A stretch of DNA of 38,268 nucleotides, taken from assembly GCA_016870055.1 (NCBI GenBank), contig VGCQ01000004.1, forward strand, positions 1 through 38,268, written 5' to 3'. The position numbers and the translations under genes were made by a program. The notes under the pieces were generated by a model that saw nothing but the letters and a program-made list of their open reading frames with translations, was not told the origin of the DNA and searched no databases. Source of the stretch: Alphaproteobacteria bacterium (GTDB lineage Bacteria; Pseudomonadota; Alphaproteobacteria; Reyranellales; Reyranellaceae). Positions 3,667-10,334 of the stretch are shown piece by piece (position 1 is the stretch's first letter; every line of letters begins with the position of its first letter).

Positions 3667-5217
3667 TCACGCGCGCAGCTTGAAGCGCTGAATCTTGCCG
3701 GTTGCGGTCTTGGGCAGCTCGGCCACGTACTCGACCCAGCGCGGGTACTTGTAGGGGGCGAGGGTCTTCTTGCAGAGTGCCATCAGCTCCTCGGTGAGGG
3801 CGGGGCCGCCGCTGCCGGCCTGCTTCAGGACGATGAAGGCCTTGGGCTTGATCAACTCGTTCTCGTCGGCCTGGCCGACGACGGCGGCTTCCAGCACGGC
3901 ATTATGGCCGATCAGGCAGCTTTCGATCTCGACAGGGGAGCACCAGATGCCGCCCACTTTCAGCATGTCGTCGCTGCGGCCGTCATAGATGAAGTAGCCG
4001 TCGGCATCCTGGCGGTAGGTGTCGCCAGTGTTGAGCCAGCCTCCGACCATGGTCTCGGCGGTTTTCTCCGGCTTGTTCCAGTAGTATTTGGCGGCCGAAT
4101 CGGCGCGGATCCACAGCCGTCCGCTGGTGCCCTGTGCCACCGGCTTGCCGTCCTCGTCCAGGATCTTTGCTTGATAGCCCGGCACCGGCTTGCCGCTGGT
4201 GCCCGATCGATGGTCGGCCAGCCGGTTGCCGATGAAGATGTGCAGCGCCTCCGTCGAGCCGATGCCGTCGAGGATCACGGAGCCGGTCTTGTCCTGCCAG
4301 CGGCGGAAGATCTCGGCCGGCAGCGCCTCGCCCGCCGAGACGCAGGCGCGTAGCGAGGAAAGGTCGCGGCGAGCTTTGTCCAAGGCCACGAGCTGGGCGG
4401 CGTAGAGCGCCGGCACGCCGTAGTAGAGCGTGGGCTTGAACCGCTCGATGATCTCGAAGGTCGTGTCGGGCGTCGGCCGCCGCTCGTCGAGCACAGCTGT
4501 GCTGCCGGTCCATAGCGGGAAGGTCATGCCGTTGCCCAGCCCGTAGGCGAAGAAAAGCTTGGCAGCGGAGAAGGAGACGTCGCTTTCGCCGACGCCCAGC
4601 GCCCGCACGCCGTAGAGCTCGCTGGTCACCACCATGTCGCGCTGCAGGTGCACCGCGCCCTTGGGCCGGCCGGTCGAGCCCGACGAATAGAGCCAGAAGC
4701 AGTCGGCGTCGGGTGCGGCGAGCCGTGCGTCGAGCCGATCGGACGCCTTGGTCATCTCGGCAAGGAAAGCATCGACGGTGAGTGCCGCGACCGGCGCTTC
4801 CTTCAGGGCGGGCTCGATCTCGGCCGCGAATTCGCCGGAGTAGACCACGAGCCTGCAGGCCGAATCCTCGAACATGTAGGCGTAGTCGGCGGCGCGCAGC
4901 AGGGTGTTGGGCGGCACCGGCACGATGCCGGCTTTGATCGCCCCCCAGAAGAGATAGAAGAAGGCGGGGCAGTCTTTCACCACCATCATCAGCCGATCGC
5001 CCGGCCGAAGGCCGCGGGCCAGCAGGGCATTGCCGGTCCGGTTCACCCGTTCGGCGAGTTGGCCGTAGGTCACGGTCTCGGCGAGCGTGCGGATCGCGGG
5101 CTTGGCGCCGCGGCCCTCGCTCGAGTGCCGGTCGATGAAAGGGACTGCGACGTTGAAGCGGTCGGGAAGCTGCACCCGAAGATCGGCGTCGAAGGCAATG
5201 CCCGGCGGGAGAGTCAT
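3667..5217 (-). CDS. benzoate-CoA ligase family protein
   Basis: Cytoplasmic AMP-forming acyl-CoA synthetase, 516 residues from the ATG at 5217, matching the usual 500-530 residues of benzoate-CoA ligases. It would activate benzoate (or a close analogue) to the CoA thioester with ATP. Motifs in order: adenylation loop LYSSGSTGRPKG at about 177-188; GIGSTEALHIFIGN, resembling the benzoate-ligase acid pocket; TGDTYRQDADGYFIYDGRSDD; and PKTATGKIQRFK with the adenylating Lys at about 508. A weak ribosome site (AGGT) precedes the ATG. The same frame continues upstream without a stop through a ParE-like toxin sequence to a GTG at 5553, giving a possible 628-residue fusion. The position between boxBC and an ABC importer supports benzoate as substrate; hydroxy- or aminobenzoates are alternatives. 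Confidence 0.93.
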   Translation of the reverse strand: MTLPPGIAFDADLRVQLPDRFNVAVPFIDRHSSEGRGAKPAIRTLAETVTYGQLAERVNRTGNALLARGLRPGDRLMMVVKDCPAFFYLFWGAIKAGIVPVPPNTLLRAADYAYMFEDSACRLVVYSGEFAAEIEPALKEAPVAALTVDAFLAEMTKASDRLDARLAAPDADCFWLYSSGSTGRPKGAVHLQRDMVVTSELYGVRALGVGESDVSFSAAKLFFAYGLGNGMTFPLWTGSTAVLDERRPTPDTTFEIIERFKPTLYYGVPALYAAQLVALDKARRDLSSLRACVSAGEALPAEIFRRWQDKTGSVILDGIGSTEALHIFIGNRLADHRSGTSGKPVPGYQAKILDEDGKPVAQGTSGRLWIRADSAAKYYWNKPEKTAETMVGGWLNTGDTYRQDADGYFIYDGRSDDMLKVGGIWCSPVEIESCLIGHNAVLEAAVVGQADENELIKPKAFIVLKQAGSGGPALTEELMALCKKTLAPYKYPRWVEYVAELPKTATGKIQRFKLRA

Positions 5218-5553
5218 CGCGGTACCTGCGAGAAATTCTGTTGCGCCTTCATGTAGCCCAAGCCGCCGCCGGATGGCAGCGGGATCGCGTCGAAGATCGA
5301 TGATCGCGGCCACGAAGATCGCGGCGGGCAACGCGGCATAGAAGACTCCGATCGACCACCGTGGCAGCACGGCGCGCCGCAAATCGCCATCAAAGCGTTC
5401 GTATAGCTCCGGAAACTCGCCGATCAGGTCGAGGACAGCGGAAATGTCTTCATTCAAGCGACGGGCGGTCTGCGGATTGGCCCTGGCGATGCGCGCCAGG
5501 GTGTCGCGTAAGTCATCGCTTGCCGCGGTGCTGATGATGATCGGAAGTTTCAC
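5218..5553 (-). CDS. RelE/ParE-family toxin frame, open into the ligase
   Basis: These 112 codons start with a GTG overlapping the antitoxin stop (GTGA), the usual coupling in such modules. The sequence KLPIIISTAASDDLRDTL and, at the end, RRAVLPRWSIGVFYAA and IDLRRDPAAIRRRLGL match the ParE toxin plan: N-terminal strand, two helices, then strands ending in the xRxP-type tail. The normal family length is 90-105 residues, so the domain looks complete. What is missing is a stop codon: the frame continues through HEGATEFLAGTA directly into the ligase ATG at 5217. Either the toxin is made as a toxin-ligase fusion or its stop was lost and the ligase uses an internal start. Toxin activity is unproven. 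Confidence 0.72.
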
Positions 5554-5807
5554 CGGTATTTTTGCTTCAACTCCGCCTTCAGCTGCTCCCAAGGAATCCC
5601 ATTGGATGGATCGAGCTTGAAAGCTTCGACGCGTCGGTGAAGCTCCACGATCAATTCGGATTCCAAAGGCCGATTGACGTCGAGAGCGGCCGACGCATCG
5701 GAATCTCCATGCCGCGCATCTTCGGCGATGCTGAGCCAGAGCTGGTCGATCAGCGCCAAGCGCTCGTCGACGCTCAACGTGGATGGATCGAAATCGGGCA
5801 CGGGCAT
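5550..5807 (-). CDS. addiction-module antitoxin (TIGR02574-like)
   Basis: A small acidic protein of 85 residues with the hallmarks of the 'putative addiction module component' family: STLSVDERLALIDQLWLSIA near the start and RRVEAFKLDPSNGIPWEQLK near the end. It would bind and neutralise the ParE-like product encoded immediately downstream. A ribosome site AGGA lies about 8 bases before the ATG. Its stop overlaps the GTG of the toxin by 4 bp. The module sits between a TctC receptor gene and the ligase inside an aromatic-degradation unit, which suggests insertion into an existing operon (inference). Confidence 0.85.
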   Translation of the reverse strand: MPVPDFDPSTLSVDERLALIDQLWLSIAEDARHGDSDASAALDVNRPLESELIVELHRRVEAFKLDPSNGIPWEQLKAELKQKYR

Positions 5808-6874: not shown

Positions 6875-7207
6875 TCATGCCCCGCCACGGAAAAGTGAGA
6901 AACCCCACGGTGTCATCTTGAGCGGCAGGTGATAGTGCTGGCCGAGATCGGCGACGCCGAAACGATAGGGCACCGTTTCGAGAAAAGCCGGCGACGGCAC
7001 GGCCACGCCTTGGCCGCGATACCAGGCGCCGATGAGGAAGACCGCCTCGTAGGTGCCAGTGGCGGGGGTCGGCGCGTCGAGTGTGCCGGGCGCCGCCGTC
7101 CGGCCGTCGATCAGCAGCGCGCCGTCCGGTCCCCGGACCTCGACGCGCAAGCCGGCGGCCGGCACGCCGCGCGAGACGTCGTAGACGTGGATCGAGATGC
7201 CGGCCAT
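6875..7207 (-). CDS. divergent transthyretin-like / HIU hydrolase-fold protein in the box operon
   Basis: A 110-residue protein with the plan of 5-hydroxyisourate hydrolase: N-terminal ISIHVYDVSRGVPAAGLRVE, middle TGTYEAVFLIGAWY, and C-terminal LGQHYHLPLKMTPWGFSLFRGG. Of the four family catalytic residues, the two His are kept (H7 and H93), but the Arg of the TNxDGR motif aligns with Thr (PGT, residue 42) and the C-terminal YRGS reads FRGGA, so the Ser is lost. The ATG at 7207 overlaps the boxB stop as ATGA, so it is probably translationally coupled to boxB. A second, canonical HIU hydrolase domain is encoded at 20664-21545. The role is unknown; a function tied to the box pathway rather than urate is suggested by context and by the changed active site. 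Confidence 0.85.
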   Translation of the reverse strand: MAGISIHVYDVSRGVPAAGLRVEVRGPDGALLIDGRTAAPGTLDAPTPATGTYEAVFLIGAWYRGQGVAVPSPAFLETVPYRFGVADLGQHYHLPLKMTPWGFSLFRGGA

Positions 7208-8625
7208 CAGTTGAACCGGACGTATTCGAAATTTGCCGCCTGGTTGTTGATGCCGCGCTGCGGCGGAGCGATCCAGTTGGCGAACTTGCCGGGCTCGATC
7301 ACCGCCGGGCCCATCAGCGACGTCACGAAAGCGCGGTCCTCGCCGGTCGGCAACCACTTTTGCTCGTTGGCCTTCCAATCGGCCTCGCTCATGACCTTGC
7401 CGTCGGGCGAGACGTGCAACTCGGCGAAGGTGCCGATGCGGCGGTTGAAGGCACGGTGCGGCAGCTTGAGCTCGAAGTCGATGCCCGCCTGCTCGATGGC
7501 GCGGTTCCAGCGTAGCAGGCCCTTGGCGCAATCCTCGACATAGTCGTTGCGCAGGCGCTCGTTCAACGCCGACAGCGCCGGCACGGTCTTGCGCACGATG
7601 CGGCCGTTCTCGGCGGTGTCCATTTCGAAAGTCGAGTCGGCGAGCACGTGGTCATCGGCGATGCGCGTCTCGAGGTATCGGCCCTTGACGCCCATCGTGT
7701 AGTAGTTGGCGGCGTTGGTCGAGGCCTCCTGGCCGAACAGGTCGAGCGACACCGAGAAGTGGAAGTTGAGGTACTTCTGGATCGTCGGCAGATCGATCGC
7801 GCCGAGACCGCGCACATCGTCGGTCTTGTGCTCCCTCATGAGGTCGCAGGTGCGCTGGACGATGCGCTGCACGCCCGACTCGCCCACGAACATGTGGTGG
7901 GCTTCCTCGATCAGCATGAAGCGGCAGGAGCGCGACAGCGGGTCGAAGCCGGATTCGGCGAGCGAGGCGAGCTGGTACTTGCCATCGCGGTCGGTGAAGT
8001 AGGTGAACATGAAGAACGACAGCCAGTCCGGCGTCTTCTCGTTGAAGGCGCCCAGGATGCGCGGCTTGTCGGGATCGCCGGAGTGCCGCTCCAGCAGCAT
8101 CTCCGCCTCCTCACGTCCGTCGCGGCCGAAATAGGCGTGCAGCAGGTAGACCATCGCCCACAAATGCCGGCCTTCCTCGACATTGACCTGGAAGACGTTG
8201 CGCAGGTCGTAGAGCGACGGCGCGGTCTTGCCGAGCTGACGCTGCTGCTCGACCGATGCCGGCTCGGTGTCGCCTTGCGTCACGATCAGGCGCCGCAAGG
8301 TCGAGCGCAGCTCGCCCGGAACCTCCTGCCAGGCGGGCTTGCCCTTGTTGTCGCCGTAGGCGATCAGGCGGTTGGGGTCCTGGCCTGCGAGAAAAATTCC
8401 CCAGCGGTACTCCGGCATCTTGACGTAGCCGAAGTGGGCCCAGCCATTGGCCTCGGCGGAGATGGCGGTGCGCAAATAGACGTCGAAATTCGTCGTGCCG
8501 TCCGGCCCCATGTCCTTCCACCAGTCGAGGAAGCGCGGCTGCCAGTTCTCGAGGGCGCGCTGCAGGCGCCGGTCGCTCGACAGGTCGACGTTGTTGGGGA
8601 TGCGCTGGGTGTAGTCGATGGCCAT
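7207..8625 (-). CDS. boxB: benzoyl-CoA 2,3-epoxidase oxygenase subunit BoxB
   Basis: Cytoplasmic diiron oxygenase component that converts benzoyl-CoA to its 2,3-epoxide with O2 and electrons from the reductase BoxA. It has 472 residues, the normal BoxB length. The two ExxH iron-binding motifs are visible as E151-H154 (VEEGRHLW) and E241-H244 (IEEAHHMF); E121 and D212 sit where the other ligands are expected from the published BoxB structure (from memory). The ATG at 8625 follows a strong AAGGAG site and lies 11 bp after the boxC stop. It is followed by the HIUase-fold gene with a 4-bp overlap. No boxA is present nearby, so the electron donor must be encoded elsewhere. Confidence 0.96.
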   Translation of the reverse strand: MAIDYTQRIPNNVDLSSDRRLQRALENWQPRFLDWWKDMGPDGTTNFDVYLRTAISAEANGWAHFGYVKMPEYRWGIFLAGQDPNRLIAYGDNKGKPAWQEVPGELRSTLRRLIVTQGDTEPASVEQQRQLGKTAPSLYDLRNVFQVNVEEGRHLWAMVYLLHAYFGRDGREEAEMLLERHSGDPDKPRILGAFNEKTPDWLSFFMFTYFTDRDGKYQLASLAESGFDPLSRSCRFMLIEEAHHMFVGESGVQRIVQRTCDLMREHKTDDVRGLGAIDLPTIQKYLNFHFSVSLDLFGQEASTNAANYYTMGVKGRYLETRIADDHVLADSTFEMDTAENGRIVRKTVPALSALNERLRNDYVEDCAKGLLRWNRAIEQAGIDFELKLPHRAFNRRIGTFAELHVSPDGKVMSEADWKANEQKWLPTGEDRAFVTSLMGPAVIEPGKFANWIAPPQRGINNQAANFEYVRFN

Positions 8626-8636
8626 GTCCTGCTCCT

Positions 8637-10298
8637 TCACGCGCGCTTGCGGTCGTACTTGGCTTGCTTGCCGCTGCCGTAGAGTTTCAGTGCGCCCTCG
8701 GCTCCGGTGGCGTTGGGTCGCTGGAAGATCCAGTTCTGCCAGGCCGAGAGTCGGGCGAAAATCTTGGTTTCCAGGGTCTCGGGCCCGGCGAAGCGCAGAT
8801 TGGCTTCCATGCCGGTGAGGCCGTCGGGCGAGAAGCCGGCGCGCTCCTCGACGGCGAGCCGCACCTCGTCCTCCCAATCGATGTCGTCGGGCGTGAAGGT
8901 GACCAGGCCAAGCTCGTCGGCCGCCTCGGCATCGATCGCCTGGCCGATCTCGCTTTTCAGTTCATCGACGCGGTCGGGGGCGGCGAGGAAGCGGCTGGCC
9001 AGCCGCGTCAGGCCATTGCCCATGGGGCATGGGCCGAAATTCATCGCCGTCAGCCTGATCGAGGCGGCGGGCAGGTTGGAGCCGTCGACCGTGCCGTCCA
9101 GCATGTAGGAACGGTCCGCCGCCAGCACCAGCTCGAACAGCGTGCCGGCAAAGCACGAGCCCGGCTCGACCAGCGCGATCAGGCTGCGCGCGCTCACGTC
9201 GAGGCGCTTCAGCGTACGCTTCCAGTAGAGCACGATCTCGCGCACCAGCCAGTCCGACGATTGTCTTGCCAGCAGCGCGTCATAGGCTTCGACCAGCGCG
9301 CCGTCGCCCTGGCTCTGCAGCACCCAGGTGCCGATCTCGGTCTCGTTCAGGCGCAGATGCATCATCGCATCGTCGAGTTGACGCGCGAGCGCGAGCGGCC
9401 AGAACGCCGCGCCTTGACCGTGAATCGCCGCAGCATCGGCCGGTGGCGCGGCGTCGGGGCCGTTGAGACGAAGCTTGGCGGCGCGCCGTTCGCGATCGAT
9501 CTCGACCGTGAGATGGCCATAGCGGATCGTGTCGCCCTCGATCGCACGCTCGATCGTCGGCAGGGAGATGCCCTTGGCGTCCCTCGGCCGATCGGACCGT
9601 GCCGCCACGCTCTCGGCGATCTTGTGGGTTTCGTCGGCGAGCCTGCTCGGCGGGATCAGCGTGTCGACCAGCCGCCAATCTCGTGCCCGCTTGCCGCGCA
9701 CGCCCTCGGCGGTGGTGCAGAAGAAGTCGGCGTGATCGCGCCGCACCAGGCGCTTGTCGACCAGGCGCGTCAATCCGCCGGTGCCGGGCAGCACGGCAAG
9801 CAACGGCAGCTCGGGCAGCGACACCGCGCTCGAGCCGTCGTCGGCCAGCAGGATCTGCTCGCAGGCGAGCGCCAGCTCGTAGCCACCACCGGCGGCGATG
9901 CCGTTGATCGAGCAGATATAGGTCTGGCGCGAATGGGCGCTGGCGTCCTCGATGGCAAGCCGCGTCTCGTTGGTGAACTTGCAGAAGTTGACCTTGTGAT
10001 GGTGGCTCGACAGTCCGAGCATGTTGATGTTGGCGCCCGAGCAGAAGATGCGGTCGCGCTGTGAGCGGATCACTACCGCGCCCACTTCGGGATGCTCGAA
10101 GCGCAGGCGCTGCACGGCATCGGCGAGCTCGATGTCGACGCCGAGATCGTAGGAATTGAGCTTGAGCTTGTAGCCCGGCCGCAAGCCGCCATCCTCGTTC
10201 ACGTCGAGCGTCAGGTAGGCGACACCGCCTTCGAGCGCGAGCTTCCAGTGCCGGTAGCGGCTGGGCTCGGTGCGACAATCGATCGGCAGTTCGGCCAT
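8637..10298 (-). CDS. boxC: 2,3-epoxybenzoyl-CoA dihydrolase BoxC
   Basis: A 553-residue crotonase-superfamily enzyme that opens the ring of 2,3-epoxybenzoyl-CoA by adding two waters and releases formate, giving 3,4-dehydroadipyl-CoA semialdehyde. Length and N-terminus (YRHWKLALEGGVAYLTLDVNE) match BoxC. The crotonase core includes RDRIFCSGANINML at about 83-96 (oxyanion region) and INGIAAGGGYELALACE, then a second half with SCFAGTLFELVLAADR, typical of the double-length BoxC architecture. The ATG at 10298 has AGGGA about 9 bases upstream. It is the first gene of the long minus-strand unit and faces a divergent regulator operon across 75 bp that contains a palindromic operator candidate. Confidence 0.96.
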   Translation of the reverse strand: MAELPIDCRTEPSRYRHWKLALEGGVAYLTLDVNEDGGLRPGYKLKLNSYDLGVDIELADAVQRLRFEHPEVGAVVIRSQRDRIFCSGANINMLGLSSHHHKVNFCKFTNETRLAIEDASAHSRQTYICSINGIAAGGGYELALACEQILLADDGSSAVSLPELPLLAVLPGTGGLTRLVDKRLVRRDHADFFCTTAEGVRGKRARDWRLVDTLIPPSRLADETHKIAESVAARSDRPRDAKGISLPTIERAIEGDTIRYGHLTVEIDRERRAAKLRLNGPDAAPPADAAAIHGQGAAFWPLALARQLDDAMMHLRLNETEIGTWVLQSQGDGALVEAYDALLARQSSDWLVREIVLYWKRTLKRLDVSARSLIALVEPGSCFAGTLFELVLAADRSYMLDGTVDGSNLPAASIRLTAMNFGPCPMGNGLTRLASRFLAAPDRVDELKSEIGQAIDAEAADELGLVTFTPDDIDWEDEVRLAVEERAGFSPDGLTGMEANLRFAGPETLETKIFARLSAWQNWIFQRPNATGAEGALKLYGSGKQAKYDRKRA

Positions 10299-10314: not shown

Positions 10315-10334
10315 GTAATTCGGTACCGAAATAC
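10315..10334. promoter_or_regulatory. palindromic operator candidate between boxC and the GNAT/Rrf2 operon
   Basis: In the 75-bp divergent intergenic region there is a perfect 12-bp palindrome, TTCGGTACCGAA (10319-10330), extended to a 20-bp imperfect palindrome (GTAA...ATAC arms, 10315-10334) with a single mismatched pair. It lies in AT-richer DNA 17 bp upstream of the boxC ATG and about 40 bp upstream of the GNAT start. This is the expected place for an operator controlling both directions. The nearest regulator candidate is the Rrf2-family protein encoded at 10808-11203 (inference). I saw no other copy of the 12-mer in the window. Confidence 0.6.

Follow-up and report, generated by a model that had tools for sequence, protein, structure and literature searches.

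A ParE-type toxin gene runs without a stop codon into a full-length benzoate-CoA ligase gene in the stretch of DNA analyzed here (38,268 nucleotides of contig VGCQ01000004.1, hereafter the window), and comparison with related loci indicates that this is a real, conserved and unusual arrangement. The reading that we favor, with slightly better than even confidence, is that a ParE-type toxin-antitoxin module sits within a box operon, that its toxin gene forms the 5' part of the ligase gene, and that the main product is a ParE-ligase fusion neutralized by the antitoxin.

Anatomy of the fused locus and its operon

The fused frame is part of the box (benzoyl-CoA epoxidase) operon, and the features of the locus are as follows.

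10315..10334, forward strand: near-palindrome GTAATTCGGTACCGAAATAC, directly before boxC; putative box operator
8637-10298, reverse strand: boxC, upstream gene of the same operon (TIGR03222 / TIGR03225 search)
7207-8634, reverse strand: boxB, upstream gene of the same operon (TIGR03222 / TIGR03225 search)
5550..5807, reverse strand: antitoxin gene (open reading frame 5807 to 5550), putative addiction module component, 85 aa (PF09720 / TIGR02574)
5550..5553, reverse strand: 4-nt GTGA overlap of the antitoxin stop TGA with the toxin start GTG at 5553, suggesting translational coupling
3667..5553, reverse strand: whole fused frame, 628 codons and stop, with no stop before that of the ligase (full-length matches in G006 and G023)
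5260..5553, reverse strand: ParE-fold toxin domain, residues 1-98 of the fused frame (PF05016, AlphaFold and PDB matches)
5218..5259, reverse strand: stop-free tail or linker, residues 99-112 (GLHEGATEFLAGTA), from reading of the frame; L-H-E and F are invariant in nine relatives
3667..5217, reverse strand: benzoate-CoA ligase domain, 516 aa, with an internal ATG at 5217 (TIGR02262; PDB 2v7b)

The coordinates, the overlap, the linker and the internal ATG given in the preliminary description of this DNA proved correct to the base. The antitoxin and toxin genes are adjacent, overlapping and co-directional, and the other intact loci examined carry either a GTGA or an ATGA overlap at the same border. 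The antitoxin belongs to a known family, scoring 44 bits against PF09720 (cut-off 23.3) and 54.8 bits against TIGR02574 (cut-off 31.9); a search of its profile against PDB sequences returned unrelated weak matches only. The toxin domain taken alone scores 25.8 bits against the PF05016 ParE_toxin profile (cut-off 23), the match covering residues 5-89 of the long frame. Its AlphaFold model shows a ParE fold, with pLDDT of about 87-97 for residues 1-90 and values under 50 from residue 102, and matches ParE structures in the PDB at Z 12-14, the best being PaaA2-ParE2 (5cw7/5czf) and a Mesorhizobium ParE (5ceg), both at Z 13-14. Distant stand-alone relatives end near residue 98-102, so that residues 99-112 represent an extension, which contains a conserved LHE....F motif.

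Across the junction the residues read RRDPAAIRRRLGLHEGATEFLAGTA followed directly by MTLPPG. The ligase exceeds the curated cut-off of TIGR02262 over its full length (615.7 bits, cut-off 375.25; positions 2-506 of the 508 in the profile, residues 132-627 of the frame) and matches the benzoate-CoA ligase structure 2v7b with E=1e-135; benzoate would be its expected substrate, given the family and the neighboring box genes. The model of the full fusion, built on a shallow alignment, has a mean pLDDT of 63 with low confidence in the ligase part and in the linker (residues 100-137), and the low-confidence junction is consistent with a flexible tether.

Upstream of the fused frame and in the same direction, the operon also includes a hydroxyisourate-hydrolase-like gene (TIGR02962, below the cut-off), and a further gene upstream, also co-directional and with no family match, looks like a tripartite-tricarboxylate-type binding protein; ABC-transporter genes are located downstream. 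The near-palindrome GTAATTCGGTACCGAAATAC is probably the operator of the box regulator; in 12 relatives that lack a fused toxin, close variants precede the ligase by 49-90 nt, and variants also occur in several box loci. The window has this motif before boxC and not before the ligase. The next best match to the ligase in the window's genome is only 38% identical, and since no other close copy is present there, the fused frame must supply the enzyme one way or another.

One relative, G006, carries in addition to its fused locus a second, divergent antitoxin-toxin pair (L096:4149-4813, G006:C49), whose toxin is 41% identical to that of the window. This module, G006b, has boxB on one side and the hydroxyisourate hydrolase gene on the other; the stop of its toxin apparently overlaps the start of the hydrolase gene (TGATG), and boxB of the window overlaps that gene likewise.

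Recurrence and apparent decay of the fusion in Reyranella

We searched 65 genomes of the genus (Reyranella) with the toxin. The complete order of antitoxin, toxin and ligase, with the toxin open into the ligase, was found in five of them (G000, to which the window belongs, G006, G023, G088 and G078). At a sixth locus, in G074, the toxin is frameshifted in its first half, and its second half still shares the reading frame of the ligase; this frameshift, at L102 (G074:C331), about 2822-2946, could be real decay or an assembly error. The fused frame is matched over its full length in G006 (79%) and G023 (74%), and the other four intact loci have toxins 46-57% and antitoxins 45-58% identical to those of the window. 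All six fused loci, and likewise three loci apparently deleted for the ligase, retain the antitoxin ahead of the toxin, and the distance from a conserved toxin leucine to the ligase start, 45 nt (as in G023) or 42 nt, is a multiple of three in every one of the six fused loci. The open junction noted in the preliminary description is thus real, recurring in separate assemblies at complete length in G006, G023, G088 and G078 and for the C-terminal half of the toxin in G074. Between toxin and ligase the window shows neither a stop nor a frameshift, and the same holds for the remaining intact loci.

Among close relatives, a separate toxin stop is present only in G019, G032 and G067, and in all three the toxin has no ligase behind it. 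Their toxins are 67-68% identical to that of the window and end soon after the tail. A 79-nt piece of ligase follows the toxin directly in G019 (E 2e-8) and G067 (E 7e-8), no such scrap was found behind the toxin of G032, and another ligase with its own start lies about 2 kb or more downstream in each. As judged from these sequences, the three loci look like fused copies with the ligase deleted, and because they keep antitoxin and toxin with no ligase behind, the module appears to be maintained there for itself.

Two further observations concern tail and ligase sequences in the genus. In G032 the toxin-tail DNA is present a second time (G032:C185:21818-21843), shortly after the complete toxin and before the ATG of an apparent GNAT acetyltransferase gene. 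In two other genomes the ligase match ends well short of the C-terminus and the frame continues, with 851 and 675 codons open respectively (G004:C1:170929-172236; G030:C12:140359-141816), perhaps reflecting frameshifts. A genome-wide repeat carrying the toxin tail was considered and rejected, as the tail pattern occurs just 0-3 times per genome. Sampling beyond the genus was limited: a contig scan with the toxin profile gave 7 loci, all apparently among those already found, and 289 class-level genomes gave distant matches only, nearly all of them short stand-alone frames. PADLOC returned no match.

About a dozen toxin-less relatives show, in the 20-80 nt before the ligase ATG, a resemblance to the toxin 3' end and tail, mostly out of frame. 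With nhmmer these remnants reached E-values down to 3e-14 for a model that includes the ligase start and of 1e-5 to 5e-3, in six genomes, for a model without it; in G017, AAIGRQLALKEGAAAFRSGQT is still readable in frame before the ligase Met. A junction that has no stop and a length divisible by three is seen in 6/6 toxin-bearing loci vs 3/12 toxin-less remnants, a contrast with a Fisher value of 0.005 that is indicative only, the species being phylogenetically related. In a rough simulation, five unconstrained lineages all stayed open and in frame in at most 5% of cases if indels were at least 2% of substitutions, and in 19-28% without indels. Given the shortness of the remnants and the marginal significance of some of them, insertion of the module before a pre-existing leader retains some probability as an alternative history.

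In the ligase tree the fused loci are scattered as G000 with G006, G074, G023 with G078, and G088. The five intact fused loci form these same groups in the tree of antitoxin plus toxin, in which the module of G074, a deeply different paralogue, pairs with G006b. An outgroup-rooted tree, made quickly and with long outgroup branches, is too weak to fix the direction of change. Within the toxin core, divergence is highest at third codon positions, and each pair compared has a pN far lower than its pS (0.27 vs 0.67 for G000-G006; dN about 0.06-0.07 vs dS 0.29-0.49 in a close trio), and the short tail, as a rule, and the antitoxin share this tendency; by these codon comparisons, toxin and antitoxin are under purifying selection. 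Between the window (3667-5553) and G006 (L002), the toxin dS of about 1.6 greatly exceeds the ligase dS of 0.58 within the same gene, a gap that weighs against the favored reading, as the two halves of the fused gene may have partly different histories. The fusion looks like an old one that several lineages have retained and that has decayed in many others. We infer an origin at, or close to, the base of the genus, followed by repeated decay; an old fusion with many losses is the simplest reading of the trees, and horizontal exchange or repeated fusion is a possible alternative.

Translation start and competing readings

The preliminary description had offered two options, a 628-residue fusion or a toxin that had lost its stop in front of a ligase made from its internal ATG. 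The relatives support the fusion as an old and retained state; as to the main product, the choice between the options is a prediction from sequence. The anti-Shine-Dalgarno energy at the internal start ranges from +1.9 to -4.1 kcal/mol in the six fused loci, where the coding background has a median of -2.8, and in none of the six is there a Shine-Dalgarno sequence clearly above that background. Relatives with a fresh, unrelated leader often have a strong one, at about -10 to -12 kcal/mol. The internal ATG is found in five of the six loci and is replaced by TTG in G078. Toxin-less relatives that bear a remnant share the weak start and evidently use the equivalent ATG, which would fit descent from a fused ancestor and also indicates that such a start can work. 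The absence of a Shine-Dalgarno sequence at 5217 and its counterparts argues against ordinary independent initiation. On account of this weak internal start and the TTG of G078, we favor antitoxin-coupled initiation at the GTG (5553) as the principal route of translation; its chief rival is initiation at the internal start.

In the favored reading, a fusion made from the GTG, transcription of the operon would begin in the region of the boxC operator, and ribosomes finishing the antitoxin would re-start at the overlapping GTG, yielding a single 628-residue product composed of ParE domain, short flexible tail and ligase. Fresh antitoxin would bind the ParE domain and render it harmless, and the ligase domain, which itself has a predicted flexible N-terminus, would act on benzoate, such that pathway enzyme and antitoxin would be mutually dependent in the fused arrangement. 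We infer three elements: the fused protein as the main product, its binding by the antitoxin, and a toxin domain that is toxic now or was so formerly. A role of the antitoxin as a regulator of the ligase is plausible, given the shared operon and the 4-nt coupling. We regard it as rather unlikely that a functional ParE is permanently mounted on a central catabolic enzyme, in which case every enzyme molecule would need an antitoxin bound to it; the antitoxin would then be indispensable to benzoate activation and might regulate it, and loss of either from the operon would do harm.

The chief rival, which we likewise consider unlikely though deserving of weight, is that the working ligase is initiated at the ATG at 5217 as a normal enzyme, with read-through from the toxin tolerated and the fusion minor or quickly degraded, or with both forms coexisting as two products of a single gene. 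Conservation of the ATG in five of the six loci is in its favor, as are the AGG or GGG found several nt before it in some loci and the toxin-less relatives with a remnant leader, in which ligase translation must begin at the equivalent ATG although Shine-Dalgarno pairing is just as weak there. Pairing clearly above background in none of the six fused loci and the TTG of G078 count against it, along with the lack of a nearby upstream stop for re-initiation and of a nearby sigma-70-type promoter, the latter being a weak test. A different proposal concerns the toxic-domain part of the favored reading only and is compatible with the fusion as product: the ParE domain may be a domesticated, non-toxic one, serving as a leader, stabilizer or antitoxin-docking tag and kept as a polarity trap, in which nonsense or frameshift mutations in the domain would shut off the ligase because the latter has no ribosome-binding site of its own. 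This is a serious possibility, somewhat short of even. It would account for toxin loss in lineages with a strong start for the ligase itself, as well as for the half-broken state of the G074 toxin, and the C-terminal extension beyond residue 98-102, where distant solo relatives stop, is unusual; however, the antitoxin is also kept and constrained, amino acids and not the frame alone are conserved, and antitoxin and toxin persist with no ligase behind in G019, G032 and G067.

Repeated insertion of the module before the ligase, and before other operon genes, with fusion each time, is improbable: the position of G006b between boxB and the hydroxyisourate hydrolase gene and the G006b type of the fused module in G074 speak for it, but the grouping of the five intact fused modules mirrors that of their ligases, the junction length is identical, and remnants precede many toxin-less ligases. 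Removal of the toxin stop in the window by an assembly or sequencing error is scarcely credible. The genomes concerned are draft assemblies, some of them metagenome-assembled, but the identical open junction is present in six separately assembled and strongly divergent sequences, and sequencing error or chance read-through was rejected on this recurrence at other loci.

Relation to known systems and significance

The locus resembles ParDE modules with an Unstab_antitox (PF09720) component in having the antitoxin gene first, a 4-nt overlap and a ParE-fold toxin. It differs from them in that the toxin has no stop and makes up the N-terminal part of a metabolic enzyme, and because a separate small toxin protein is missing we do not file it as an ordinary ParDE member despite its ParDE-like anatomy. 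Like the benzoate-CoA ligases of box operons (BclA / TIGR02262; solved relatives 2v7b, 4eat and 4rlf), the ligase is full-length and encoded beside boxB and boxC, but it bears an in-frame, 112-residue ParE-plus-tail extension. Cami1 (CARF-RelE, 8phb/8phj) is comparable in that a toxin domain of the superfamily is joined to another domain, which in that case is a ligand-sensing domain and not a catabolic enzyme. Gerdes (2025, PMC11980606) surveyed multidomain RelE/ParE (BECR-fold) toxins, to which the same likeness applies and for which the partners described are antitoxins and transmembrane or defense-related domains; the CoA ligase falls into none of these classes, and the word ligase is absent from the main text of the survey. 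Searches of the open-access literature on toxin-antitoxin systems with benzoate-CoA ligase, Reyranella or metabolic-enzyme fusion yielded no description of the arrangement.

Toxin-antitoxin genes are commonly regarded as modules that can be separated from their surroundings. In the present case a module has apparently become part of a pathway enzyme, and in several lineages of the genus the union has persisted through long divergence. The intact fusion, the half-broken toxin, the bare remnant and the toxin without ligase form a natural series, with the decay products present in sister species, and this series allows one to ask what keeps chromosomal modules in place, be it addiction, translation coupling or enzyme regulation.
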